NCBI GenBank assembly: GCA_017501525.1
Contig: JAFVWT010000019.1
Coordinates: 1 to 44,545 of the forward strand
From: Bacteroidales bacterium
GTDB lineage: Bacteria > Bacteroidota > Bacteroidia > Bacteroidales > UBA932
Length of the DNA stretch: 44,545 bases
Direction: 5' to 3'
Positions within the stretch are counted from its first letter, which is position 1. The number at the start of each line of letters is the position of its first letter. This document shows, piece by piece, positions 9,918 through 44,493 of this stretch. A program made the position numbers and the translations under genes. Under the pieces are notes generated by a model, which made no database searches, was not told the DNA's origin, and saw only the letters and a program-made list of their open reading frames with translations.

Positions 9918-12245
9918 ATGCGCACAAAATTTATATTATATTGCATGGCATTGCTGTCTATGCTTACTATACAACTTAATGCCAAAGAGCAAAATCATGC
10001 TCCTCAAAAGCAGAAACAAGAACTTACTGATGCCCATATAGTTGGACATGTCCTGGATAAAAATACAAAAGAGCACCTGCCATTCATTGTTGTTGCCATT
10101 CAGGGAACAATGATAGGAACGACTACAGATGAAACAGGACACTATTTTTTTAAGAATCTTCCTGTAGGAAAGCATACTCTTGTAGTCTCAGCTATCGGCT
10201 ATGTGACAGAGTTTGTAGAGGTTACACTTTCTTCCGGAGAAACAAAAGAGATTGATGTCCTTATTGAGGAAGATATGATCAATCTTGAGGCTGTTGTAGT
10301 TTCTGCAAATAGAACGGAGACCACCCGCCGTCTTGCACCTACTCTGGTAAATGTTATGAGTGGAGCAGCTTTTGAGGCGACTACCTCGACTAGTGTTGCT
10401 GACGGATTGAATTTCCAACCGGGTGTGAGGGTGGAGAATAATTGCCAGAATTGTGGGTTCCAGCAGATTCGTATCAATGGACTTGATGGCCCCTATACTC
10501 AGATTCTTATCGATTCCCGTCCTATCTTCAATGCCCTTTCGGGAGTCTATGGAATTGAGCAGATTCCTGTAAATATGGTAGATAGAGTGGAAGTTATGCG
10601 TGGAGGTGGATCTGCCCTTTTCGGCTCTTCTGCTATAGCCGGCACTATTAATATTATCACTCGCGAACCCGCTACAAACTCAGCCTCGTTGTCCCATTCA
10701 ACCACATCTATAGGGGGAACAGGAGCATTGGACAATATCACAATGCTTAATGCATCTTTGGTTACTGATGACCATAAAATGGGAATTGCTGTCTTTGGAC
10801 AGAATCGTCAAAGAGATGGATATGATGCAAATGGGGATGGATTTACAGAACTTCCGACAATCAACAGTCAGAACATCGGTACCAGGATGTTTCTCAAAAC
10901 CGGTAATTATTCGAGAATTACGGGGGAATATCACCATTTGCAGGAGTATCGTCGTGGAGGGGATTCTTTGAGTATTCCACCTCACGAAGCAAATATTGCT
11001 GAGGAAGTTACCCATAGTATCAATACAGGAAGTCTGAAGTTTGACTATTTTGCCCCAAATGAGAAACACCGTTTGAGTGTTTTTGGATCTATACAACATA
11101 TCAACAGGGATAGTTATTATGGGGCAGGTCAGAATCCCAATGCCTATGGAGGAACTACCGATTTGACCTGGGTTGCAGGAGTACAATATAACTATAAATT
11201 TGACAAATGTCTCTTTATGCCTGCAGAACTTACTGCCGGAATGGAGTTTAACCAAGATATACTTCAAGATGTAATGCACGGATATAATAGGGTCTTGGAT
11301 CAGAACACAAATATTGCAAGTCTCTTTTTGCAAAATGAGTGGAAGAATGCCAGGTGGAGTTTCTTGATAGGGGGGAGATTGGATAAGCACAATCTTATCG
11401 ACCATCTGATTTTCAGCCCGAGAGTTACAATGAGATATAATCCTACTAAGGATATTAACCTTAGAGCAAGTTATTCATTCGGTTTCCGTGCCCCACAAGC
11501 CTTTGATGAAGATTTGCATATCGATAATGTAGGGGGCACAGTTTCAATGATCCGTTTGGCCGATAACCTTAAGGAGGAAAAATCCCAAAGTGTCAATGTC
11601 TCGGGAGATTTCTATTTTGGAGAGGGTAGCTGGAGAGGTAATCTATTGGTAGAGGGATTCTATACCTATCTTTATAATGTTTTTGCACTTCGTGAAGTGG
11701 GGATAGAGAATGGAGTTATTATCAAAGAAAGATACAATGAGTCGGGTGCAGAGGTGTTTGGAGGTACTCTTGAGGGAAAAGTTGTCTATAGGGATATGTG
11801 GCAGCTGCAAGCAGGATTTACCTATCAGCGTTCGATGTATAAAGATGCCCGCAGTTGGAGTGATGACCCTCGCGTAGCTCCGACACGAAAGATGTTCCGT
11901 TCTCCCGATACTTATGGTTATCTTACTACCACCTATAATCCCATAGCTCCATTAGGTATCTCTTTGACAGGTACCTATACAGGTAAAATGTTGGTGGAAC
12001 ACTACGCGGGGGATATTGAATTTGACAGAACCGAGACTACTCCTGTTTTCTTTGATATGAATGTTAAGGTCAATTATGACTTCAAATTATATAAGAAAAT
12101 AGTTCTCTCTGTATATGCCGGGGTGAAAAATATTTTCAACTCATATCAAAGTGATTTCGATATGGGCCCTGATCGCGATTCGGGATATATTTATGGTCCC
12201 GGTCTTCCCCGTTCATACTATGGAGGAATCAAGATAAGCTACTAA
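9918..12245 (+). CDS. TonB-dependent outer-membrane receptor
   Basis: 775 residues. A signal peptide (about 1-22) is followed by a carboxypeptidase-regulatory-like beta-sandwich (about 40-118, HIVGHVLDKNTKEHLPF... to ...KEIDVLIEED), then a TonB plug (about 125-245; GLNFQPGVRVENNCQNCGFQ, the DSRPI strand, VEVMRGGGSALFGSSAIAGTINI), and a 22-stranded barrel ending in aromatic YYGGIKISY. It would import a scarce ligand across the outer membrane using TonB/ExbBD energy encoded elsewhere. No SusD partner is present, so it is not a glycan Sus pair; the single-receptor form and the preceding His-rich protein fit metal, heme or cofactor uptake better. The plug carries a CxxC (CQNC). Confidence 0.94.
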   Translation: MRTKFILYCMALLSMLTIQLNAKEQNHAPQKQKQELTDAHIVGHVLDKNTKEHLPFIVVAIQGTMIGTTTDETGHYFFKNLPVGKHTLVVSAIGYVTEFVEVTLSSGETKEIDVLIEEDMINLEAVVVSANRTETTRRLAPTLVNVMSGAAFEATTSTSVADGLNFQPGVRVENNCQNCGFQQIRINGLDGPYTQILIDSRPIFNALSGVYGIEQIPVNMVDRVEVMRGGGSALFGSSAIAGTINIITREPATNSASLSHSTTSIGGTGALDNITMLNASLVTDDHKMGIAVFGQNRQRDGYDANGDGFTELPTINSQNIGTRMFLKTGNYSRITGEYHHLQEYRRGGDSLSIPPHEANIAEEVTHSINTGSLKFDYFAPNEKHRLSVFGSIQHINRDSYYGAGQNPNAYGGTTDLTWVAGVQYNYKFDKCLFMPAELTAGMEFNQDILQDVMHGYNRVLDQNTNIASLFLQNEWKNARWSFLIGGRLDKHNLIDHLIFSPRVTMRYNPTKDINLRASYSFGFRAPQAFDEDLHIDNVGGTVSMIRLADNLKEEKSQSVNVSGDFYFGEGSWRGNLLVEGFYTYLYNVFALREVGIENGVIIKERYNESGAEVFGGTLEGKVVYRDMWQLQAGFTYQRSMYKDARSWSDDPRVAPTRKMFRSPDTYGYLTTTYNPIAPLGISLTGTYTGKMLVEHYAGDIEFDRTETTPVFFDMNVKVNYDFKLYKKIVLSVYAGVKNIFNSYQSDFDMGPDRDSGYIYGPGLPRSYYGGIKISY

Positions 12246-12330
12246 TAGTACCTGCAACTGTCTGCTATTCAAGAACAAACGCAAGTGGAAAAATTTGGAT
12301 GAAGCGGTTGTTCGCGACATTGATAAATTT

Positions 12331-12780
12331 AGATACCCGGTCAAGCCGGGTATGACCTCAGAGGTAGTTGAGTTCTGGTCGAGCCGGGTATGACATAAGC
12401 GGTCACCTTGACTTGTCAAAGTCACCCACGACATAACGAAGTCATCCCCGACTCCGATCGGGGATCTCGGGGATCTCATATATTTAAAGTTCAACAGTAA
12501 AAAACCATTTGCTTGAAACACTCAATCTAAAGTGGCAAGATTTATCAGAATCTGTTATTGCTGATCCTGGTCAGTTATGGATACCCGGTCAAGCCGGGTA
12601 TGACGGTCGTTCGAGCCAGGTATGACGTAGGAGGTAGCGGGGTTCTGGTCGAGCCGGGTGCGACGTAAGTGATGACCTTAACTTATCATCGTCACCCCCT
12701 ACTTGACGAAGCCATCCCCGACATGACAAAGTCATCCCCGACTCGATCGGGGATCTCGGGGATCCGGGAACCCGGGAATC
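12331..12780. repeat. Palindromic repeat cluster with copy B of the 170-bp repeat
   Basis: This accounts for most of the 560-bp gene-free stretch 12246-12805. Two repeat types alternate. Type 2, GATACCCGG-tcaag-CCGGGTATGAC, is at 12332-12356 and 12579-12604, with half copies (cGAGCCGGGTATGAC) at 12379, 12611 and 12650. Type 1, GTCATCCCCGAC with GATCGGGGATCTCGGGGATC, is at 12421-12477 and 12691-12767. Positions 12436-12611 are a near-identical second copy of 1606-1772, carrying an extra 8 bp. The cluster ends in GGGAACCCGGG. It is noncoding; the open frames across it are by-products of repeat composition. Confidence 0.8.
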
Positions 12781-12805
12781 CGCTGATATAGGCCCCGTTG
12801 GTCTA

Positions 12806-13155
12806 TTAACGTCTTAAAGATATGTAGTAGAGAAAACCATCGAGTTTGAAAGCAACAACTGAATTTAGTTCGATCGGCTTTATTCGGTAGGCAATTGTGT
12901 TTATGTATATGATGTCGCCACTATTAAGACTTGGATACATTGAATTATCTGTCATGAATTTACAGTCGTAAAATGCAGTAATTAAGGCTCTGTCAATAGT
13001 GTCGCCTTTAAAAAGTTCTCCTCGACATACATACATTCCACCAGGAGTGTGGTATGTATTGTCTACTGCCACGTTCCCCCATCAAATACCTGTTGAGCAA
13101 AAAGATTATTAAAGGATAAAGAACACATCAGGATAACGATATGGAAATATTTCAT
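12806..13155 (-). pseudogene. Frameshifted small secreted protein
   Basis: Two frames must be joined to read a whole protein. From ATG 13155 a signal peptide is encoded (MKYFHIVILMCSLSFNNLFA) followed by QQVFDGG, but this frame stops at 13063-13065. The other frame, open from about 13081 to 12806, continues VAVDNTYHTPGGMYVCRGEL and ends LYYISLRR. Adding one G to the run of five G on the minus strand (five C at 13076-13080) would restore DGGNVAVDN and give about 116 residues. The C-terminal half contains NSMYPSLNSGDIIYI, reminiscent of the S24/S26 signal-peptidase Ser motif, but the rest of that fold is missing, so this is not a functional call. It may be a genuine pseudogene, phase variation or a sequencing error. 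Confidence 0.6.
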
Positions 13156-13185
13156 ACTGAATGATAATTTATGTTAATAAGATTA

Positions 13186-13284
13186 CTATAGGTGAGGATC
13201 ATCAGGGTTATTAATAGGTTTTTCAATAAGTTTAATTAAAACACCTTGCTGTATTACCAATTTGTCATCAATAAGATATGCCAT
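13186..13284 (-). CDS. Possible 32-residue protein
   Basis: An ATG-initiated frame encodes MAYLIDDKLVIQQGVLIKLI and ends in NNPDDPHL. It lies 30 bp upstream of, and on the same strand as, the frameshifted secreted protein, so the two could share a message. There is no homology I can name and the length alone is weak support. The remainder of the 13156-13471 spacer holds only the promoter region of the next gene. Confidence 0.25.
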   Translation of the reverse strand: MAYLIDDKLVIQQGVLIKLIEKPINNPDDPHL

Positions 13285-13399
13285 TCAAAACGTATCTTCA
13301 TCTTCCAAGCAAATAAAGGTAGAAAGATTTCGTGAAAAGCCATAAAGGGGGCAAAAGTTTTGGAATTTGAATTTTAGAATTAGCACGTGGAATTTATAG

Positions 13400-13434
13400 A
13401 AGTTACCTATATTTGTAGCGATAAGTTACCTATA
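13400..13434 (+). promoter_or_regulatory. Promoter region with 12-bp direct repeat
   Basis: AAGTTACCTATA occurs at 13400-13411 and again at 13423-13434, 23 bp apart. The first copy runs into TATATTTG (13408-13415), a -7 box match. The pair lies 38-72 bp before the metallopeptidase start and may be two promoter copies or operator half-sites. Confidence 0.45.
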
Positions 13435-13471
13435 GTTTGAACATATTTAACAGTATCATATTTATACGCCG

Positions 13472-15499
13472 ATGAAAAAAACTTTGTTATTAACATGTTT
13501 GTCTCTGTTTACTGTATTTGCTTGTAAGCAGAAAGATTCTATTGAAATGTCAAATATTTCTCAAGAGACTATTGCCAAGGCGATAGATGCAGTATCTGAT
13601 AGGGTGTATGATAATACCCTGGCCAATAAAGGAATATCTCAGGCGGCATCATTATGGAGAGTCGAAGATGGAACCCCTGAAGATTTTATTGAATTTGTCT
13701 CTGCCAATATTATGCCCGACGAGCAGAGTAGACGAATTCTGTTTAACAAACTTTCAACTGCATTTGAAGCGATATATGGAGCCTCTAATCAGTTGACCGT
13801 AGATTTGCTTTTGCCTGTACATCTTTCGGGTGGAGAATTGACCGATATAGATTATATCTTTAGCGGATATAGCCCTTCTGCCCATTTCAGTGATGATATG
13901 TATGCAAATAAGGTTGCGTTTATTACAGTGTTGAATTTTCCGTCGTATTCTCTTGCTCAGAAAAATGAATTGGGAAAAGAGTGGTCGCGTGAGGAATGGG
14001 CGTATGCACGTATGGGGGATATTTTTACCAATAGAGTTCCTGCCTGGGTAAATCAGCAGGTCAATAGTGCGTATAGCAGTGGTGAAAATTATATCGCCTC
14101 ATATAATATTATGATGGGACATCTTCTTACAGAGGAGGGTGAAAAACTTTTTCCCGAGGATATGGTTTTGCTTTCGCATTGGAATCTAAGGGATGAGATT
14201 AAATCCAATTATGCCGATGTTCCCAATGCTTTTGAGAAGCAACAGATGATATATAAAGTTATGGAGCATATTGCCTGCCAAAGTATTCCCAAGGAGGTAA
14301 TTAACAATACTGGATACGAGTGGGCTCCATACTCCAATAAGGTATATAAAGATGGAAAGGAGGTCTCTCTCCCTTCAGAAGGTGCCCGACGTTACCAAAT
14401 GATTCTGGATATATATAAAGCAGGTCTTAATCTTGATATGTTCAATACAGACTTGAATACAGGAATCAAACGTAACTTCGAAGGGGATGTAGAGATTTCT
14501 GACGCAGATGTGGAAGAGATGTTTATCAGTCTTATAACGAGTGAAGAGATTAAGCAGGTATCTCAAATTATAAAATCGAGACTTGGCAGGGAACTGCAAC
14601 CTTATGATATCTGGTATGATGGATTCAAGAGTAGATCAACCATCTCAGAGGATGAACTTACAGCAAAAACCAGAAAACTTTATCCTGATGCAGAAGCCTT
14701 TGAAAAGGGTCTTCCTTCAATGTTGAGGAGTTTGGGATTCAGTAGAGATGATGCTGATTATATAAGCAGTAAAATTGTAGTGGAAGGTGCCAGAGGTTCA
14801 GGTCATGCGTGGGGAGCTGTAGGAAGATGGGAACCCTCAAGACTTCGTACTCGTATCGGTGATAAAGGTATGGATTATAAAGGTTATAATATCGCAGTTC
14901 ACGAATTCGGACATAATGTGGAGCAAACATTGAGTTTGTATAATGTTGACCATTATATGCTTAGAGGTGTACCAAACACAGCCTTTACAGAAGCTCTTGC
15001 GTTCATTTTTCAGAAACGGGATTTGAAATTGCTTGGTTATCCCCAACAAGTGGATGAGAATACCACATTGGATATTTTCTGGGGAGCATACGAAATAATG
15101 GGTGTTTCATTAGTTGATATGTATGCATGGAGATGGTTGTATGATAATCCTGATGCGACAGCCGAGGATCTTTGTGATGCTGTGATTTCCATCGCAAAGG
15201 ATGTATGGAACAAATATTATGAACCTATTTTGGGTACGCACGATTCGCCTATTCTGGCTATATACTCCCATATGGTAAACAGCCCTATGTACCTTCCCAA
15301 CTATCCTATCGGTCATATTATTGAATTCCAATTGGAAGAACACCTTGCCGGCTTAAGCGATAAGGAGTTTGCTCAAGAAATAAAACGGATCTTTACTATT
15401 GGTACTTTAACCCCTCATATATGGATGGAAGAGGCAGTGGGCTCAAAGGTAAGCACCGAACCTCTTATTAAAGCGGTAAGCAGAATTATCAACAAATAG
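13472..15499 (+). CDS. Zinc metallopeptidase lipoprotein (HEFGH type)
   Basis: 675 residues. The lipoprotein signal MKKTLLLTCLSLFTVFAC puts the lipidated Cys at residue 18. The zinc-binding HExxH motif is HEFGH at residues 477-481, preceded by YNIAVHEFGHNVEQT. A downstream Glu in FTEALAF (E507) is 26 residues after the second His and could be the third ligand, a gluzincin arrangement. The upstream 450 residues are mostly helical with no other domain recognised. It probably acts on peptides at the cell surface or in the periplasm. It is a single gene ended by the hairpin at 15528. I cannot name the exact peptidase family. Confidence 0.8.
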   Translation: MKKTLLLTCLSLFTVFACKQKDSIEMSNISQETIAKAIDAVSDRVYDNTLANKGISQAASLWRVEDGTPEDFIEFVSANIMPDEQSRRILFNKLSTAFEAIYGASNQLTVDLLLPVHLSGGELTDIDYIFSGYSPSAHFSDDMYANKVAFITVLNFPSYSLAQKNELGKEWSREEWAYARMGDIFTNRVPAWVNQQVNSAYSSGENYIASYNIMMGHLLTEEGEKLFPEDMVLLSHWNLRDEIKSNYADVPNAFEKQQMIYKVMEHIACQSIPKEVINNTGYEWAPYSNKVYKDGKEVSLPSEGARRYQMILDIYKAGLNLDMFNTDLNTGIKRNFEGDVEISDADVEEMFISLITSEEIKQVSQIIKSRLGRELQPYDIWYDGFKSRSTISEDELTAKTRKLYPDAEAFEKGLPSMLRSLGFSRDDADYISSKIVVEGARGSGHAWGAVGRWEPSRLRTRIGDKGMDYKGYNIAVHEFGHNVEQTLSLYNVDHYMLRGVPNTAFTEALAFIFQKRDLKLLGYPQQVDENTTLDIFWGAYEIMGVSLVDMYAWRWLYDNPDATAEDLCDAVISIAKDVWNKYYEPILGTHDSPILAIYSHMVNSPMYLPNYPIGHIIEFQLEEHLAGLSDKEFAQEIKRIFTIGTLTPHIWMEEAVGSKVSTEPLIKAVSRIINK

Positions 15500-15522
15500 A
15501 TATTTATTCTCTTATCAGTAAA

Positions 15523-15565
15523 ACAATCCCCGAGAGTCATGATTGTTGGTTCTCGGGGTTTAGTT
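15523..15565. repeat. Left 43-bp direct repeat flanking the ATPase unit
   Basis: Matches 16869-16911 at 40 of 43 positions in the same orientation; the last 26 bases (GATTGTTGGTTCTCGG... to TTTAGTT) are identical. Read on the minus strand it still encodes the final NPENQQS and stop of the TPR gene that lies beyond the ATPase. It therefore looks like a displaced 3' end of that gene. Confidence 0.85.
15528..15561. terminator. Bidirectional terminator hairpin inside the left repeat
   Basis: An 8-bp perfect stem CCCCGAGA/TCTCGGGG with a 15-base loop follows the metallopeptidase stop by 28 bp and is trailed by TTTAGTTT. On the minus strand it would end the ATPase transcript. In the right repeat two of the three mismatches break this stem. 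Confidence 0.75.
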
Positions 15566-15568
15566 TGC

Positions 15569-16780
15569 TTAATAGAGGAATCCAAATGCCCAGAGAGGAA
15601 TTCTCTTTCCTACAGCCACATCTATGTTGTCTACAGCCAAAGCAGCTTTATCCATATCCTCTTCGTTTATTTGCGAAAACCCTTTACTTGCACCACCAAT
15701 CTCTATTACGATCTCTCCATCAATTCTGTAGTCGCCTGTTTTTAATCCACCATATTCGACTTTATGTCCGGCGGATGAAAGTTGATTGCAGAAAAAACAT
15801 TCCCTGATTGTTCCTGTCTCAGGTTCCTTGCTGCAGAGACTATAAATTTGATTAGGGTTGTCCAGCATAAGTTTATCGGGTTTTTGAAAATCGGTGATTG
15901 TATCTTGCTTTGTATATATATTTCTTGTGAGTTTTGCCTCTGCAAGATACTTCATATATTTTAGGAGAGTTACTCTATCTAAACTTATGCTCTTTGATAA
16001 TTTTGCTATATCCACTTGATAGGGTAAAATGCCGGATACTACTTGCAGAAATGCTTTAATCTTTCTGGTGTTTTCAATACTGACATTCCTGTATTTTGTC
16101 AACTCAATGTCAATCGTATAGTTGATGACATTCTCTATGATATTCTTATATGTTTTTCTTTTCTCAAAAGAGAACGGGTAATATCCTGATTTCAAATAGT
16201 CGGAAAAAAATTCAAGAGGTCTGAGTTCCTTTTTGACTTTTGAACAGAATTCTGTCGGATGGTTCAGAAGTTTCTCAAGAGTTATGGGGGGAATCTCTTT
16301 ACCTGTCCTGAACCAGAGGTATTCTCTGAATGAGAGACCTGGCATATCATAGATGTCTTGCCGACGGGATAAGTCAGCTTCTCCATCGTTCAACTGTATT
16401 AGGGAGGACCCACTTAGAACTATTTTCAATGATTTGTAAAGATCATTAATCTCTTTGATTTCTTTACTCCATCCGTCGTATTTGTGTACTTCATCTATAA
16501 ATAAACGTTCTCCCCCTTGTCTGACAAAGGTCGCAGCGGTATCCACTAAAGTGTGAGTGGTGAAGTATCCTGTATCAGCAGAACAATATAGCGCATGTCT
16601 GTCAGAAATATCGTAGTTTTTCAGGATATATTGTTGCATAAGGGTAGATTTGCCAACACCCTTAGGCCCTCTTATTAGGATAAGTCTCGAATCCCAATCA
16701 ATGGTTCTGATTAGCTCCCGTTCAAAGGTCATTGGGACATCGGAAAGATATTCTATGTGTCTCTCAAATAAAACATTCAT
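15569..16780 (-). CDS. AAA-family ATPase with DUF4143-type C-terminus, in a repeat-bounded unit
   Basis: 403 residues from ATG 16780 (an in-frame TTG at 16804 is a weaker start). Walker A is RGPKGVGKST at about residues 37-46, Walker B is RLFIDEVH near 94-101, and a sensor strand reads VLSGSS. A winged-helix-like part (LPYQVDIAKLSKSISLDRVT) follows. The C-terminus has a restriction-endonuclease-like remnant, GGLKTGDYRIDGEIVIEIGG. This AAA_14/DUF4143 family is abundant and variable in Bacteroidales with unknown function. The gene ends 3 bp from one 43-bp direct repeat and its promoter region ends at the other, with two operator-like palindromes between. The unit carries no recombinase. Confidence 0.9.
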   Translation of the reverse strand: MNVLFERHIEYLSDVPMTFERELIRTIDWDSRLILIRGPKGVGKSTLMQQYILKNYDISDRHALYCSADTGYFTTHTLVDTAATFVRQGGERLFIDEVHKYDGWSKEIKEINDLYKSLKIVLSGSSLIQLNDGEADLSRRQDIYDMPGLSFREYLWFRTGKEIPPITLEKLLNHPTEFCSKVKKELRPLEFFSDYLKSGYYPFSFEKRKTYKNIIENVINYTIDIELTKYRNVSIENTRKIKAFLQVVSGILPYQVDIAKLSKSISLDRVTLLKYMKYLAEAKLTRNIYTKQDTITDFQKPDKLMLDNPNQIYSLCSKEPETGTIRECFFCNQLSSAGHKVEYGGLKTGDYRIDGEIVIEIGGASKGFSQINEEDMDKAALAVDNIDVAVGKRIPLWAFGFLY

Positions 16781-16813
16781 AAGCCAATTCTTTTGTTTAT
16801 GCAATACTACAAA

Positions 16814-16864
16814 TGTTTATTGTGATAAACAAATAAAATATAAAAATGTTTATCAGAATAAACA
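16814..16864 (-). promoter_or_regulatory. Two perfect 18-bp palindromes upstream of the ATPase
   Basis: TGTTTAT-tgtg-ATAAACA at 16814-16831 and TGTTTAT-caga-ATAAACA at 16847-16864 share identical 7-bp arms with different 4-bp centres. Their centres are 33 bp apart, close to three DNA turns. A weak -7 box (TTTATTTG, minus strand 16837-16830) lies between and overlaps the nearer palindrome. This is the layout of a cooperative repressor operator. Confidence 0.7.
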
Positions 16865-16868
16865 CATG

Positions 16869-16911
16869 ACAATCTCAGAGAGTCACGATTGTTGGTTCTC
16901 GGGGTTTAGTT
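16869..16911. repeat. Right 43-bp direct repeat, overlapping the TPR gene 3' end
   Basis: Direct-repeat partner of 15523-15565 (3 mismatches in 43). It contains the last codons and stop of the TPR gene (LNPENQQS), so the gene stays intact after the presumed insertion. Two mismatches weaken the terminator stem present in the left copy, which could let TPR transcription run into the ATPase. Confidence 0.85.
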
Positions 16912-18610
16912 GTATTACCAGTTGTGCCAAATGGCTCTCAAGAGTGCTCTCACCGGCCGGGATAGCTATTTTTCTGCGGATTTTGGTTCTTAAGGTGTAT
17001 ACGCTGTTTATATTGCGGTGATTCATCAGCAGACGAATGCTTTCTTGTGTGAATCCCAAACAAATCAAAGCGCAATAAGATAGTTCATATTTTGTCAAAT
17101 CGGGATATTCATTCTTTAAGTAGGTCATGATTCCGTTAGACAAAAGGTCCGTTAAGGAATTGAGGTCATCCATAAATTCAGTATCGGTATTTCTGCTGAC
17201 CTTAAGATGTTCTTTAAATTCGGAGTAGAATCTTGCAGGATTACTTTGATGAATATGCGCCAATTCGGTAAGATTCTGAAGATTTTTAATACGTCCATAT
17301 AATAATGAGATTAAATGCGAGGTCTTGTCGGAATTTACAGTTTTGATATTCATTTCCAACTCTCTACATCTATTCTCCAATTCATTCTTTTGTTCAATGG
17401 CGTCAGCTATATATTCTCGATACTCCTCCACCTCTATAGAACGTTTTTTGTTAATCTTTTTATATTTTCTGAAGATATAGAAAACTAATATGAAAGTAGC
17501 TATAAAAATAATAGAATACGCCACAATCATATAAATGTGACGCGAACGGATAAGTTTGTACGATTCCTGATAATGTTTTGCTAAATATTTTTCCTCAACC
17601 TCTTTAGCGACATTCGACAAATTAACTTTGTACAGAGAATCTTTGCAACGTCGATATTTTCTTTCGTACATAAGAGCAGAAGTTAAGTCTCCGGTCTTTT
17701 CATAAATTTCGCTTATTTCTCTAAAATCTTCTGCGGTATATATGGTATGTTGAGTAGTAGCTTCGATGCATTTTTTGAAGTACACGATAGCAGAGTCTAA
17801 TTGATTGGTTCTCTTATAGTAAACAGACATTGCATAGTTATACTTCATTAGGTCCTTCTCATTTTTGAACAGTTCATACCATTCCTCCATTATATATGTT
17901 TGATTAAATTTATAGTAACCTATATTTTCAAGAGTCATGGATAGGTTCAAATAGAGCTGATTTTGATTTAAATCAAGAGCCATCTGCTTTGCCTCCAACA
18001 GATAAGGAATGGCTTCCTCATACATTCCTATCGATCTGTACATCATCCCGACATTTTTGGTTGCCATTAGAATATTCGACTTGTTATCGGTTTGCAAATA
18101 CTCCTCCAATGCCCGTTTATGGTATTCCAAAGCTGAACGTCTGTCGTATTGGGTAAAGTAACTTCCCCCTATAGCATGATAAATAAGTCCTTTGGTATAG
18201 TGATCATCAGTTTTTTCAGCATAAATTTTTGCTTGAATAAAAAAATCAATAGCCTCAGTATATAGATTGGCGTTATATTTAGTGACCCCGTGATAATAAA
18301 AGGCCAAGGCCTTTTCCCTGTCAGAGCCATGCTCTTTATAATATTCCAAAGCCACAGCGGTCAGAGAATCCGAGCGGGAGTCGATATAATTCTTGTTCAT
18401 AGCCTGAGCATAGAGGAGCGAGAATTTAGCCCTTTGTTTACCCTCTGCCAATTTTATTCTTTCAATCTTATCCAACATCTTCAATGCGCTGTCGGGATGC
18501 TCCATTATTATAGATTCTGCAGTATTGATAATCTTGTCGATTTGTGAAGATTTACTACAGGCAGAGAGCAATGAAATTGTCAAAGCCAAAACCAAAATCA
18601 GAGTTTTCAT
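16883..18610 (-). CDS. TPR sensor-type lipoprotein with membrane helix and HTH-like C-terminus
   Basis: 575 residues. The lipoprotein-like signal (MKTLILVLALTISLLSAC) is followed by about seven tetratricopeptide-type helical repeats (residues 30-340), a membrane helix (about 362-386, YMIVAYSIIFIATFILVFYI), a coiled coil (390-440) and a cytoplasmic C-terminal region whose last 100 residues (TKYELSYCALICLGFTQESI, then RTKIRRKIAI) resemble a LuxR-like helix-turn-helix. Such TPR-TM-HTH proteins are common regulators in Bacteroidota. It is divergent from the DUF3244 gene across a 184-bp region with repeated motifs, so it may control that side. The stop lies inside the right 43-bp repeat. Confidence 0.85.
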   Translation of the reverse strand: MKTLILVLALTISLLSACSKSSQIDKIINTAESIIMEHPDSALKMLDKIERIKLAEGKQRAKFSLLYAQAMNKNYIDSRSDSLTAVALEYYKEHGSDREKALAFYYHGVTKYNANLYTEAIDFFIQAKIYAEKTDDHYTKGLIYHAIGGSYFTQYDRRSALEYHKRALEEYLQTDNKSNILMATKNVGMMYRSIGMYEEAIPYLLEAKQMALDLNQNQLYLNLSMTLENIGYYKFNQTYIMEEWYELFKNEKDLMKYNYAMSVYYKRTNQLDSAIVYFKKCIEATTQHTIYTAEDFREISEIYEKTGDLTSALMYERKYRRCKDSLYKVNLSNVAKEVEEKYLAKHYQESYKLIRSRHIYMIVAYSIIFIATFILVFYIFRKYKKINKKRSIEVEEYREYIADAIEQKNELENRCRELEMNIKTVNSDKTSHLISLLYGRIKNLQNLTELAHIHQSNPARFYSEFKEHLKVSRNTDTEFMDDLNSLTDLLSNGIMTYLKNEYPDLTKYELSYCALICLGFTQESIRLLMNHRNINSVYTLRTKIRRKIAIPAGESTLESHLAQLVIQLNPENQQS

Positions 18611-18625
18611 AAGGAGTTATTTTAG

Positions 18626-18651
18626 CTCTAAATTATAAAAATTTTAGAGCA
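18626..18651. promoter_or_regulatory. Inverted repeat GCTCTAAA/TTTAGAGC upstream of the TPR gene
   Basis: Perfect 8-bp arms with a 10-base A/T-rich centre, 16 bp upstream of the TPR start codon. It could be an operator or a leader hairpin. Confidence 0.4.
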
Positions 18652-18658
18652 AAAAAAC

Positions 18659-18746
18659 GTGTATGAGTGTAGTATTAGATTTTATTTTACTATATGCTTA
18701 ATACACAACATATTACAATTTGGTGTATGAGGCGTGTATGTGTAGG
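18659..18746. promoter_or_regulatory. Repeated GTGTATG motifs between divergent genes
   Basis: CGTGTATGAGTGTAG (18659-18673), GGTGTATGAGG (18722-18732) and CGTGTATGTGTAGG (18733-18746) share a GTGTATG core in one orientation. The position between the TPR sensor gene and the DUF3244 gene suggests regulator binding sites; this is inference. Confidence 0.4.
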
Positions 18747-18765
18747 ATTTTTAATCGTTAATTAA

Positions 18766-18773
18766 TAAATTTG
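18766..18773 (+). promoter_or_regulatory. -7 promoter box TAAATTTG for the DUF3244 gene
   Basis: TAAATTTG matches TAnnTTTG and ends 21 bp before ATG 18795. No clear -33 TTTG lies upstream, which fits a promoter needing an activator bound at the GTGTATG repeats. Confidence 0.5.
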
Positions 18774-18794
18774 CAATAATAAAAACTATCAAAA

Positions 18795-19202
18795 ATGAAA
18801 ACAAGACTAATTATCTTATCATTATTTGTACTGCTGCTTGGGGTGCAACAAATCTCGGCTCAGACAGTTGTTTCAGATGTTGATGTAATAATTGACAAAG
18901 AAGAGTCATCTGAATCTGGCTTAGGAAGAACTTTAACCCCAATAATTGAAGCCCAAATCAACACCCTCTCAAGATTGCTAAGCTTAACTTTTAATGAGCC
19001 GGTAGGTATAGTTGTTATAGCTGTAACAAACTCGATAGGTGAAACTGTTGCATCGGTACAATGTAATACCTCAGTGGAGCCATTCATGCAGTTGTCAGTG
19101 CCTGTTGACGATGATACATATTATATAGAAATAAATGGAAACAAAATATCCGCCTTTGCTACTTATACCATCTTAAATAGATTTATTAATACTAACCAAT
19201 AA
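18795..19202 (+). CDS. Secreted DUF3244-like protein
   Basis: 135 residues. A Sec signal peptide (about 1-22, ending QQISAQ) precedes a small beta-rich domain. The pattern TPIIEAQINTLSRLLSLTF, then NEPVGIVVIAVTNSIGETV, then a DDDTYYIEINGN strand is the Ig-like layout of DUF3244 proteins of Bacteroidales. I recall these occurring near C10 cysteine peptidases, and one lies 1.5 kb downstream here. A role as an exported inhibitor or partner of the peptidase is a hypothesis from neighbourhood only. The next lipoprotein starts 134 bp on with no clear promoter box between. Confidence 0.7.
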   Translation: MKTRLIILSLFVLLLGVQQISAQTVVSDVDVIIDKEESSESGLGRTLTPIIEAQINTLSRLLSLTFNEPVGIVVIAVTNSIGETVASVQCNTSVEPFMQLSVPVDDDTYYIEINGNKISAFATYTILNRFINTNQ

Positions 19203-19336
19203 ATTACTAAGGGTATCATCAAAAAATTAACACTGCTTGAACTATAGTATTTTAAATTAAAAATATTCATAAAATGTACAAGAACTTGTCAATTCTAAAC
19301 TTTATAATATTTATTAATCATTAAAAATCCCAAATT

Positions 19337-19786
19337 ATGAAACACATTTTTTATTTTGCAATCTTGTGCTTGATGATGTCTTGTAATAACAGTGGTAAGC
19401 AAGAGGTTAAAGCTGAAGATTTTAAGGTGAATGATGAGATGTTCCGCAGTGAACTTGTCACTCTTCCAATGGAGAGACAGAAAGAGATATATAGGACACT
19501 CTCTCCCGAAATGAAGCATAAATTATATGAGTATAAGTATACCATAGATTTGGCGTCTGATAGACTGACAGACAAGGAAAAGAAATATTTGACCCAATTT
19601 AAAAATGAGTTCTGTACTATCGAGACATTCTCTAATCCAGAAGGTATCTCAGAAGAGACACAGTCATACTGCATTCAGTCTTTCAAAGATAATTTGGGTT
19701 GGTCAGATGATAAGATTTACATATACTCTATGACCTTTATGACAGCTGATGAGATTGAGAAATATATTGAAGATCAGAGCAAATAA
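19337..19786 (+). CDS. Small lipoprotein, possibly fulvocin C-related
   Basis: 149 residues. The signal MKHIFYFAILCLMMSC gives a lipidated Cys at residue 16. The mature part is helical and charged, with MERQKEIYRTLSPEMKHKLY followed by SDRLTDKEKKYLTQ, and two further cysteines (FCTIETF and SYCIQSF). The 'LSPE.K..L...K' plus 'LT..EK' pattern recalls proteins labelled bacteriocin fulvocin C-related in Bacteroidota; the match is by eye and weak. Position after the DUF3244 gene suggests co-expression. No catalytic motif is visible. Confidence 0.65.
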   Translation: MKHIFYFAILCLMMSCNNSGKQEVKAEDFKVNDEMFRSELVTLPMERQKEIYRTLSPEMKHKLYEYKYTIDLASDRLTDKEKKYLTQFKNEFCTIETFSNPEGISEETQSYCIQSFKDNLGWSDDKIYIYSMTFMTADEIEKYIEDQSK

Positions 19787-19981
19787 GGAGTTTTATCAAC
19801 CATCTCAAGAGGATGATGTTACAAAATAAACGATGAGTTAGATCTGGAAAATAAGGGGAAGTCTGCCGATTGACTTAGATTGAAGAAATTAAATGACTAT
19901 TCCTATTTAGTTTAATCTTTAACCTGTCCCTAATTTTTATGGGATACTAATGAAACAATAGTTCGTTAATTTTTCCAAGTC

Positions 19982-20480
19982 CTAAGCGGCCCTAGCAGTA
20001 AATAAAACCAGTTCTTTGAGAAGTTTGTCAATAACTTGTGGGTTCGGTCGCAGACCGGACACGCAAATAAATTGATTGAGCATATAAGTGTTATGGATGA
20101 TCGACTTGCAGGATGATATTGAGAAAGGTATTCCCAGTTTCTTGTAAGCGACCTTAGCGAGGTTGATGCTTGCGAAAGAGGCGTTCCGATGGAACTCGAG
20201 TTTCCTGAGATCGGTTGACTGGCAGTCGTTAAGACCGGCATAGTGCTTCGCATCTCTGAAACAGAACTCCAACTGGAAACGGGTTCTATAGCAATCAATC
20301 ACATCCTTGGTACTCATGGATTCATCGGTGCTGAAGGAAATTGACCTTGCCTGGGATTGCCATGAATAGTTTAAGCGTATCCATAAACACTTTCTCAAAA
20401 GGTTTGCTTACCTTTGCTGCTGATTTGAGGGCCTCAAGGCACTCGGATTGGTATTGCATAAGTAGGTTTGATGAGCTCAT
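19982..20480 (-). pseudogene. IS4-family transposase with internal deletion
   Basis: The N-terminal 52 codons (ATG 20480; MSSSNLLMQYQSECLEALK to AIPGKVNFLQ) are followed by a stop at 20322-20324. In another frame from about 20345 down to 19982 the C-terminal domain continues (FSTDESMSTKDVI...). That part holds the IS4 signature Y-(2)-R-(3)-E-(6)-K exactly in CYRTRFQLEFCFRDAK. A full IS4 transposase is about 400 residues, so roughly 230 residues carrying the first catalytic Asp residues are deleted with a frame change. It cannot be active by itself. Element ends could not be assigned with confidence. Confidence 0.85.
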
Positions 20481-20704: not shown

Positions 20705-20730
20705 AAGTATTGAATGAAATGTACTTAAAA

Positions 20731-22011
20731 ATGAGAAAATGTATTCTTTATATGTTATCTTTCCTATTAATTTCATGTGTGAAAGAAAACTCTAATCTTC
20801 CAAATTCTGTTGGTATAGTAGAAACTGATTATAAATTGGAGTCCGCTATTGCGGAATTGTATTCAATGATGGATGTAATAGCCTCCCATGATACGAAATC
20901 ATTGCACTCAAAAACTATTTCTAAGGTAACAACTTTAACATCTTCTGACTTCTATTTTTTGAATAATCAAACTAAATCTGTAAAGGAAGACTCTGATATA
21001 GTCTATATAGTTGATTTTAACGAGGGTGGTTGTGCTGTGTTAGGAGCTGATGATAGATTGAAACCCGTTATATTAATATTGGAAAATGGGACGATAGACC
21101 CTATGACAATTACCAGTATAATTCCAACTCCGATAGGAAACAGTTTATTTGATTATTATAATGAGGAAATGCAGGAATATTACATAGGGAATAAAGAGAA
21201 TATTCTAGGAAGTTCCAATATTATATCATTATATATCGAAAGAATGCTAACGCATCCATCCTCAGTCGATGATGAAAATTATACTTATCAATTATCAATT
21301 GATGCTGTACCTCCTATCCTTAATACTCGTTGGCATCAAGGCTCGCCATATAATAATAAGATGCCTTTATTAATAACAATGACAAGGAGGCCGATGGGAT
21401 GTACGACTCTGGCTCTCCTACAAATACTAGTGGCAAATAAGGATATTCCAATTAGTGCATTTGGCGTAACAGAGTCTACTTGGGAAGACTTAGATGTTGT
21501 AGGGATATATGATTCTGATGATTCTCCTGAGAATCTACAACTAATAGATGATGTTTCTACCATTGCTAGAAGATTAGCTGATGGAATAGATGTATTTTAT
21601 AACTTTTTATTTAGTGGTGGAACCTTTGCTACGCCAAAACAGGTGTGTAATTACATGAAAGAGATAGGATATGAATATGCTGATGTTGTTATGGGATTTT
21701 CCCTATCTTCGATTCTAAATATGCTACAACTAAATAAACCTGTCTTTATCGCTGCGCTTAATGGAGGATTTAATGGCCATGCATGGGTGATTGATGGATA
21801 TGTAAACAGAATAGCAACTCATAATGTTACAGGAGAAAGAACTGAACAATTATTATTGCACTGTAATTGGGGCTGGGCTGGCTTAGACGATGGATATTAT
21901 ATTCCGGAGTTATTCGATTCAGATGGATTTGTTATTCCCGATTACCCTACATATATAGGTGATGACCCCGGATTTAATGCCAGTTGGTGGTATCGTCAAA
22001 TCGTCTATTAA
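20731..22011 (+). CDS. C10-family (streptopain-like) cysteine peptidase lipoprotein
   Basis: 426 residues from ATG 20731, which starts a lipoprotein signal (MRKCILYMLSFLLISC); ATG 20719 is an alternative. A pro-region (about 20-185) contains the beta-rich IVDFNEGGCAVLGADDRLKP segment typical of streptopain propeptides. The mature domain opens with LNTRWHQGSPYNNKMP. The catalytic Cys is C224 in PMGCTTLALLQIL, the His H350 in FNGHAWVIDGY, and the oxyanion/orienting NWGW motif is at N379 (HCNWGWAGLDDGYY). All catalytic residues are present, although the region around Cys departs from the usual GCVATAxAQ. Related secreted peptidases include SpeB, B. fragilis Bfp and interpain. Its upstream region is interrupted by the IS remnant. 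Confidence 0.9.
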   Translation: MRKCILYMLSFLLISCVKENSNLPNSVGIVETDYKLESAIAELYSMMDVIASHDTKSLHSKTISKVTTLTSSDFYFLNNQTKSVKEDSDIVYIVDFNEGGCAVLGADDRLKPVILILENGTIDPMTITSIIPTPIGNSLFDYYNEEMQEYYIGNKENILGSSNIISLYIERMLTHPSSVDDENYTYQLSIDAVPPILNTRWHQGSPYNNKMPLLITMTRRPMGCTTLALLQILVANKDIPISAFGVTESTWEDLDVVGIYDSDDSPENLQLIDDVSTIARRLADGIDVFYNFLFSGGTFATPKQVCNYMKEIGYEYADVVMGFSLSSILNMLQLNKPVFIAALNGGFNGHAWVIDGYVNRIATHNVTGERTEQLLLHCNWGWAGLDDGYYIPELFDSDGFVIPDYPTYIGDDPGFNASWWYRQIVY

Positions 22012-42700: not shown

Positions 42701-43075
42701 TTATCCCCGACCTGATGGATGTCATCCCTGACTTGATCGAAGTCATCCCCGACTTGATCGGGGATCTCGGGGATCTCTGGAACATAAAAATCAAGGCAAA
42801 TGAGGTTAATGTTCCTTTGGGTATCTGGTTGGTGAAAGAGAGGTGGTTCTACCTTGTAGGTCGTGGTTGGAATGGAGGGTGGTGGTGTTTTGCTTTTCGA
42901 AGGGTCGCGGCTATATTGCCGCTTCCTTCTCTTTTACAACCCCCAGACCCCCTTTTTAAGGGGGCATTAGTCGCTGCGCTCCTACGCTCTTGTGTTTTGC
43001 TTTTGGGTTTGTCTGTAAATGGCCGCTAAATGTGACGAAGTCATCCCCGACCTGACGAAGTCATCCCCGACTCCG
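42701..43075. repeat. Second palindromic repeat cluster
   Basis: Part of the 587-bp gene-free stretch 42623-43209. Type 1 repeats occur at 42702-42778 (three GTCATCCCCGAC-like units spaced 20-21 bp, ending GATCGGGGATCTCGGGGATCTC) and at 43040-43071 (two units 20 bp apart). Between them lies a different palindromic motif, CCCCC-agaccccctttttaa-GGGGGC, near 42941-42965. Open frames through this stretch have compositions set by the repeats (repeated IPDL) and are not genes. From 43076 to 43209 nothing further is recognised except a 15-codon frame on the minus strand. Confidence 0.75.
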
Positions 43076-43209: not shown

Positions 43210-44493
43210 TTATTGTTTCAAACATCCTATCGGAACAATGTAAATACCATCTTCTGGGCGGCGATAAGCATGTTCGCCAGTTGCTGTTAATATCATCTTA
43301 AAAGCAGGTGCTTTCATGCGTGTTGTGTCAATCTGCTTGGCTAATGAAGTCAGTGTTTCTATACCTTCGTTTATCAAGGTCTCGCCTCCAAGTTTAACTT
43401 CAATAAGTCCATACTGTCCGTTTCGAAGATGTACAACTGCATCACATTCCAAACCGCTTTTATCTCGATAATGATATACTTTACCGTTTAATGCTTCTGC
43501 AAATACACGCAAGTCTCTTACGCACATTGCTTCAAAAAAGAACCCCATTGTCTTCAAGTCGTTCATTAAATCTGCAGGTCCCAAGCCTAATGCTGCCGTT
43601 GCGATAGATGGGTCAACAAAATAGCGTGTATCTGCTGTACGAATTGCGGTTTTTGAACGAAGATTCGGATTCCAAGCCGGCATATCTTCTACCACAAATA
43701 TTTTTCTCAAAGCTTCAAGGTAAGAACTTATTGTATCATCATCAAGTGTTGCAGTGTCATTATTCTTTAGGTCCTCTTTTAATGTTGCAATGGATGCTTG
43801 CGTTCCCTGATGTCGGGCATATGCCCTCATCAAGCGTTGCACCCGATCCGAAGCTCTTTTAACACCATCAACTTTGGTTATATCTTCCTTGGTTACTGCA
43901 TCGTAATAATCAAACGCCTGTTCCAATGCCGCCTCTTTGGGTAATCCAACAGCCATAGGCCAACCACCGCGACATATCAAGAAAGCTATATCTTGTAATT
44001 TAAGTTCATTCTTCTCCAATATCTTTTCTGGAGAAGTAAACAAATTGCCAAGACTTACCTTTCCGTTTGACTCGCCAGATTCAAACAAGGTCATAGGTCG
44101 CATAGTCAACCAAGCAAAGCGTCCTGTTCCGGAATGTTCTCTTTCCTCTTCTGCCTCCTTGTCTGGAACAGCAGAGCCTGTTAAAATGAATTGTCCCATT
44201 TTACGGCGATGGTCAACAGTATATCTTACAGCATCCCACAACTTGGGCACAGTTTGCCATTCGTCAATAAGCATTGGGGTATCTCCTGACAATGCTGCAT
44301 CAGTATCTATTTCTAATAGGCTCTTGAAGTTACTCTTCACATCAGTTCGAGCCAACAATATTTTGCTGGCTGCAACCTCCTCTGCTGTTGTGGTCTTTCC
44401 ACACCACTTTGGGCCTTCTATCAGTACGGCTCGCTTTGCCTGTAACTTCTTTTCAAGCAGGCTATCCATTATTCTATGTCTGTAACCATCCAT
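43210..44493 (-). CDS. AAA_14/DUF4143-type ATPase
   Basis: 427 residues, complete. Walker A is IEGPKWCGKTTT (about 25-36), Walker B is PMLIDEWQ (about 73-80), and the sensor strand is FILTGSA. The DUF4143 half follows (about 200-420), ending in a nuclease-like fold with SGLECDAVVHLRNGQYGLIEVKLGG, which keeps the D...(I)EVK pattern of PD-(D/E)xK enzymes. These ATPases are common and variable in gut Bacteroidales; some have been suggested to be toxin- or transfer-related, without proof. It belongs to a different subfamily from the ATPase at 15569 (low visible similarity beyond motifs). It is preceded by a TACCTTTG box and lies next to the repeat cluster. Confidence 0.9.
   Translation of the reverse strand: MDGYRHRIMDSLLEKKLQAKRAVLIEGPKWCGKTTTAEEVAASKILLARTDVKSNFKSLLEIDTDAALSGDTPMLIDEWQTVPKLWDAVRYTVDHRRKMGQFILTGSAVPDKEAEEEREHSGTGRFAWLTMRPMTLFESGESNGKVSLGNLFTSPEKILEKNELKLQDIAFLICRGGWPMAVGLPKEAALEQAFDYYDAVTKEDITKVDGVKRASDRVQRLMRAYARHQGTQASIATLKEDLKNNDTATLDDDTISSYLEALRKIFVVEDMPAWNPNLRSKTAIRTADTRYFVDPSIATAALGLGPADLMNDLKTMGFFFEAMCVRDLRVFAEALNGKVYHYRDKSGLECDAVVHLRNGQYGLIEVKLGGETLINEGIETLTSLAKQIDTTRMKAPAFKMILTATGEHAYRRPEDGIYIVPIGCLKQ

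Follow-up and report, generated by a model that had tools for sequence, protein, structure and literature searches.

A single ATPase gene probably inserted with a 43-bp target duplication at the 3' end of a TPR protein gene of a Bacteroidales bacterium

The ATPase locus and its direct repeats

The stretch of DNA analysed in this study (the window, 44,545 bp) spans positions 1 to 44,545 of contig JAFVWT010000019.1 of a Bacteroidales bacterium (GenBank assembly GCA_017501525.1). On its minus strand, it carries an AAA_14 ATPase gene (15569..16804), whose flanking repeats, relatives and probable origin are the subject of this report. The gene upstream of the ATPase gene (16883..18610, minus strand) encodes a TPR protein, which is BT3442-like with a score below the cut-off. 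On the other side is a convergent gene (13472..15499, plus strand), which the initial annotation of this DNA called a metallopeptidase gene and which had no Pfam or NCBIfam match.

The ATPase gene is bounded by two 43-bp direct repeats in the same orientation, at 15523-15565 on its downstream side and at 16869-16911 on its upstream side. The two copies are equal at 40 of 43 bases, differ at positions 7, 9 and 18 of the repeat and are spaced by exactly 1303 bp, which reproduces the coordinates and the count of the initial annotation. Also as described there, the right copy belongs to the TPR gene itself, forms its native 3' end and encodes QLNPENQQS*, and the left copy, on the far side of the ATPase gene near the convergent neighbour, is a duplicated TPR gene end that still encodes KLNPENQQS*. 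In the left copy, either strand gives a strong hairpin (z -5.9 and -3.8), and the repeat is thus also terminator-like; no strong hairpin was found in the right copy (z -0.7 and -0.4). With up to three mismatches allowed, a search of the window for a 27-bp core of the repeat gave only these two copies (mean of 100 shuffles, 0.00), and the same two copies were the only ones in the genome assembly (1.53 Mb, 82.8% complete). The repeat is therefore no dispersed terminator, an identity that the initial annotation had considered and that is ruled out here. No Rfam match was found in the region 12000-20000 at E values up to 1.

The putative inserted cassette between the repeats (15566..16868, minus strand, 1303 bp) contains a promoter region with operators, the ATPase open reading frame (ORF) and 3 bp past its stop codon. 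This ORF, the one large ORF of the insert, matched AAA_14 with E=1.1e-25. Upstream of it are two 18-bp palindromes, the operator-like TGTTTATTGTGATAAACA (16814..16831), whose exact pattern occurs twice in the genome and both times here, and TGTTTATCAGAATAAACA (16847..16864), 33 bp from the former; genome-wide, the exact patterns of both were found at the window locus only. The description of the insert as an ATPase gene plus its own promoter region thus stands. A domain search of the one large ORF of the 1303 bp, which is overlapped by two short antisense ORFs (80 and 123 residues), found no transposase, and the absence of a recombinase from the insert, as claimed before, was borne out. At the ends of the insert, no inverted pair of at least 20 nt was found, shorter pairs being below the search floor.

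No close ortholog of the TPR gene was found among 99 relatives (best 33%). In addition, the 170 bp 3' of the metallopeptidase gene in 20 relatives showed no resemblance to the window junction.

The ATPase and its family

The ATPase ORF encodes 411 residues from a TTG codon and ends with IPLWAFGFLY, and the start conserved in relatives is an ATG at residue 9, at about 16780. The AAA_14 score of the protein was 90.6 bits (curated cut-off 27). The initial annotation had assigned it to the DUF4143 ATPases, an assignment that failed, as DUF4143 scored only 16.5 bits (cut-off 28.1). It is the second ATPase of the window (43210..44493, minus strand; AAA_14 plus DUF4143), a member of the same superfamily, that passes with 117.6 bits. 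In the C-terminal part of the first ATPase, E335, D358, E368, K374 and Q378 were invariant in 40 of 40 sequences, and this part is a probable PD-(D/E)XK nuclease domain, with D358, E368 and K374 as its probable nuclease residues; the Walker A residue is K52. Foldseek gave no match better than E 0.1 for the C-terminal domain, and the match to the archaeal AAA+ ATPases Sso1545 (2fna) and PABY2304 (2qen) leaves it uncovered. Like its structural relatives, the ATPase presumably also contains a winged-helix domain.

Both window ATPases matched the profile of PDC-S01, a phage-defence candidate of PADLOC, with E=4.2e-22 over residues 27-356 for the first and E=5.7e-66 for the second. The AAA_14/DUF4143 ATPases of PDC-S01 correspond to COG1373. 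Matches to the window ATPase were found in 193 of 299 family genomes, its own included. Its nearest relatives are in other genera: two genomes with 74% and two with 69% gave the best other matches, each of them from another genus, and the best other match in its own genus was 45%.

In PMC12988326, PDC-S01 is presented as a single-gene candidate, an ATPase fused to PD-(D/E)XK, with multiple transfers between domains. It is the fourth most common defence candidate there, with 29,494 bacterial and 9,986 archaeal detections, and most such candidates still await validation, according to the same paper. PMC13356809 gives the PDC-S01 family as the most frequent individual locus of rumen genomes. Moreover, COG1373 is among the 19 genes listed in Table 2 of PMC10782964 as nearly identical between gut genera; the horizontal transfer of the family is therefore already in print.

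Direct repeats around other ATPase genes

Flanking repeats were searched around 195 ATPase loci, designated here by L numbers (L070 is the window locus), with G numbers for genomes. The loci comprised 110 from whole genomes, 80 from named genomes (the best 80 of 477) and five from viral contigs; the 110 consisted of 30 from the search of the family genomes, the window included, and 80 further ones among the matches listed. The 186 loci with 200 bp or more of flanking sequence at either end entered the repeat scan, in which direct repeats had to score at least 46 and low complexity was excluded. Such repeats flanked 22 of the 186 ATPase loci, compared with 5 of 290 other ORFs, three of the five being around one same pair. 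After merging of loci with shared flanks, for which the best-scoring locus was kept, the repeats were at 22 of 161 sites, and mismatched flanks gave 2/1600. At 16 of the 22 repeat-bearing sites, the downstream copy was no more than 60 bp from the ATPase stop codon.

Eight of the 22 were tight target duplications (L070, L081, L084, L087, L153, L256, L266 and L281). In three (L083, L085 and L124), the ATPase's own operators were repeated behind the gene. The upstream copy was 215-426 bp from the ORF in four (L232, L248, L258 and L283), and the downstream copy was more than 60 bp away in six; L277 was AT-rich. The clear duplications were 31, 32, 33, 43, 54, 75 and 127 bp long, and six sister inserts with duplications had lengths of 1309-1368 bp.

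The initial annotation had anticipated ATPases elsewhere that are flanked by copies of a neighbouring gene's end, and the search for them was positive. Similar to the 43 bp of the TPR gene end in the window, the duplications consisted of 75 bp of the ispF end in L087, 32 bp of the end of a MacB/FtsX permease gene in L153 and 54 bp, 25 of them coding, at the end of a PAP2 gene in L256. In L281, the duplication was at the start (5' end) of a gene and measured 127 bp, of which 122 were coding. The repeat of L289 (212 bp, diverged) was from a convergent AAA_28 gene, of which it covered the 3' part minus the present last 30 bp; it was removed by the low-complexity filter though coding, and this duplication is probably real. 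The filter also discarded the repeats of L163, L287, L222 and L221 as low-complexity or minisatellite-like, and L114 was discarded likewise by eye.

On the family tree, no clustering of 14 repeat-bearing copies was found (13 changes, compared with a mean of 13.6 after shuffling; 158 of the 500 shuffles reached a value as low). Eight of 31 plasmid records were read for plasmid copies, and none of the eight gave convincing flank repeats, the one score of 47 being on a palindrome.

Empty sites at sister insertions

Sites that lack the ATPase and have a single repeat copy, which the initial annotation had taken as a sign of insertion, were found for three sister insertions (L153, L087 and L084). 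At the site of L153, the copy of G002, the junction was uninterrupted in G003 and G007, with a single copy of the 32-bp repeat and no ATPase, and it was at this repeat that the alignment of the left flank ended and that of the right flank began. The ATPase was absent from all ten loci homologous to L153 (L181-L190), of which only those of G003 and G007 shared the whole upstream intergenic stretch. Three others (L183, L187 and L190) had the same upstream gene as L153 with a different intergenic sequence, and the remaining five had another upstream flank.

In L087, the copy of G282, the 75 bp of the ispF end were duplicated perfectly and a tRNA-Gln gene was 1483 bp after ispF. Of 19 loci examined for comparison, ispF was found in 14, and in 13 of these 14 the distance from ispF to tRNA-Gln was 25-274 bp, the fourteenth showing no tRNA. 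For L084, the copy of G183, the same gene end in G234 was followed by one copy of the terminator (a 31-33 bp repeat) and by no ATPase. This case is less clean because about 300 bp beyond the second repeat copy had no counterpart in G234 and because the terminator repeat had a few further copies in the genus. At the site of L094, the ATPase was found in none of 29 relatives (30 loci from 76 matching genomes, one of which was G278 itself), and the intergenic repeat was not alignable.

The unit shared between unrelated sites

The extent of the shared sequence was determined for 48 locus pairs whose ATPase genes had a DNA identity of 85% or more. Many pairs were one site in sister species, or duplicate records. 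In several others, the two copies were at unrelated sites; near-identical copies of this kind had in common only the ORF with about 57-126 bp before it and no more than about 50 bp after it. For instance, the similarity of L134 and L137 (99.4%) extended for 86 bp upstream and 48 bp downstream. The corresponding values were +66 and -4 bp for L093/L100 (97.6%), +100 and +30 bp for L325/L326 (96%), +57 and +38 bp for L078/L082 (92.9%), +85 and 0 bp for L266/L267 (90.8%) and +63 and 0 bp for L116/L118 (90%). Moreover, the edges of similarity in L266 matched, within one base, the edges set by its 33-bp repeats.

Copies of the second window ATPase with 98%, 96%, 95% and 88% protein identity were found in three genera, in unrelated flanks. 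For the closer copies, DNA similarity stopped 95-100 bp upstream, where the contig allowed, and on the other side between -1 and 30 bp from the stop codon. No clear flanking repeats were found at 29 loci of this subfamily (best score 38), and no clean empty site was found for its member L324, the genus of which conserves the downstream flank and not the upstream one. Partial copies of this subfamily with internal stops were observed at G022:C9, G044:C122, G057:C6 and G145:C14, which suggests decaying cassettes. The stops flagged in L073, L074 and L085 precede the conserved ATG and are therefore no sign of decay.

Paired palindromes upstream of the ATPase gene

The twin palindromes at 33-bp spacing were kept in the four closest homologs (L071-L074). 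In the wider family, 22 of 160 upstream regions contained twin palindromes at a spacing of 31-33 bp and with 13 or more of 14 pairs, for which base shuffles expect 0.0. In L080, L083, L085, L124 and L159, the ATPase's own palindromes reappeared right behind its stop codon, with 97% identity over 66 bp in L083. As their sequence is that of the ATPase's own operators, these repeats were rejected as target duplications.

Among the sites homologous to the L153 insertion and without ATPase, one operator-like palindrome was observed in L183 (G008) and two in L187 (G005), as if an older cassette had decayed down to its promoter; none was observed at the corresponding spot of the neighbouring locus L190 (G013). 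In five loci of sister species (L170, L171, L173, L175 and L176), the ATPase and the downstream flank were alike, and L171, L173 and L175 differed from L170 and L176 by about 0.7 kb of extra sequence on the upstream side, reaching the operators.

Other features of the window

Between genes, GC-rich repeats built from related units (CCCCGACTTGA, GGTCAAGCCGG) were observed at 1747-1788, 12332-12780, 42703-42760 and 43033-43071. A gene of the Peptidase C10 family with a weak Spi inhibitor match is at 20710-22011.

Interpretation and alternatives

Comparison of sister loci showed sites that match apart from the presence or absence of the bare ATPase gene; 31-75 bp of the target were doubled only where the ATPase was present. 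The window ATPase gene is probably a single-gene mobile cassette that was inserted whole at the 3' end of the TPR gene with a 43-bp target duplication. Such a cassette would consist of about 57-126 bp of promoter with paired operators, the ORF and at most about 50 bp past the stop codon, and would have entered the TPR gene end as a single piece while 43 bp of the target were doubled. Because of this duplication, the TPR gene keeps its end and the far side keeps an orphan copy with a terminator. We infer that the target would be nicked twice, tens of bases apart, the cassette joined and the single strands filled in; nicks staggered so far would, with gap filling, lead to long duplications of variable length. 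Surviving insertions would be mainly intergenic or so close to a gene end, within one duplication length, that the gene is restored. The agent of movement is most likely the cassette's own protein, with its AAA+ motor, presumed winged-helix domain and probable PD-(D/E)XK nuclease domain, of which the winged-helix domain could bind the paired palindromes at the left end of the cassette.

More broadly, and more tentatively, the PDC-S01/AAA_14 ATPases might be a new class of autonomous one-protein mobile element that nicks its target twice, tens to more than 100 bases apart, and inserts its own gene with long, variable duplications, a proposal that we regard as quite possible and still short of probable. 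If the family is a one-gene mobile element, its abundance gains another explanation and defence censuses need re-reading; what is counted as a very common defence system would in part consist of a selfish gene. It would also be a way of moving DNA with target duplications several times longer than those that known insertion sequences make.

At 139 of the 161 merged sites there was no clear repeat, which may be due to age or to other ways of moving. The unconserved cassette ends fit repair-mediated joining, and the variable ends and duplication lengths suit repair better than a transposase. It is thus conceivable, if rather doubtful, that the insertions are real and the ATPase is cargo. Host repair or a trans-acting enzyme would then join incoming or copied DNA into staggered breaks, and the gene would be kept because it is useful, e.g., in defence; the filing of the family as phage-defence candidate PDC-S01 (PMC12988326) would suit such a role. 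A role as cargo is, however, at odds with the lower frequency of repeats around other ORFs (5/290, three around one pair, vs. 22/186 at ATPase loci), and near-identical copies have in common only the ATPase gene and its upstream region.

Tandem duplication of the TPR gene end together with the ATPase, the second ATPase being lost later, would account for the operators just past the ATPase stop codon in L080, L083, L085, L124 and L159, which a deleted second copy would leave. It is nevertheless unlikely for the window, where no ATPase or operator remnant is present past the left repeat. Relatives at the sites of L153, L087 and L084 have one repeat and no ATPase, and the repeat boundaries of L266 fall where its similarity to a copy in unrelated surroundings ends. 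The restored 3' ends recall integrative elements at tRNA genes, to which the initial annotation had likened the locus, and the gene-end copy could then be an attachment (att) site carried by the cassette. The duplications vary greatly in length and are mostly at gene 3' ends but once, in L281, at a 5' end, and are therefore unlike integrase att sites. Related cassettes also hit differing targets (TPR, ispF, MacB/FtsX, PAP2 and terminators) and no recombinase was found in the insert, so that attachment of the integrase type is very improbable. The earlier claim of an insertion that restores the target's 3' end is, in contrast, supported by the empty sites of sister loci. It is just as improbable as integrase-type attachment that a terminator repeat or an assembly artefact, with no insertion at all, is responsible. 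Some repeats are terminator-like hairpins and that of L084 recurs a few times in its genus, but the window repeat was found at this locus only, several duplicated stretches are coding and the pattern reappears in genomes of differing sources. Insertion of a single-gene cassette remains our preferred interpretation.

Comparison with known systems

PMC12988326 and PMC10782964 treat PDC-S01/COG1373 as a candidate for defence or as a gene that was transferred, and the available parts of these two papers do not mention insertion as a bare gene with a long target duplication. In the open-access literature searched, no account of this family inserting in that way was found. The novelty rests on the insertion pattern and not on the putative agent of movement.

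Similar to insertion sequences of the DDE, HUH and serine families, the cassettes consist of one gene, appear at new sites, duplicate their target and have empty sites with one target copy. Different from them, window-type cassettes have no conserved ends among loci and no long terminal inverted repeats were found. The target duplications of insertion sequences are usually 2-14 bp, whereas those of the cassettes are 31-127 bp and are not short or near-fixed. Like integrative elements at gene 3' ends, the cassettes restore the end of the target gene, but they have no integrase and no shared att core, and a 5' end was also hit. Like homing endonuclease genes, the cassettes are single genes with a probable nuclease domain and with insertion that spares the target gene; the targets of the cassettes are, in contrast, mutually unrelated and each duplicated, with no fixed cognate site. 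The cassettes therefore fit none of the definitions of insertion sequences, integrative elements and homing genes, yet they behave like a one-gene insertion element.
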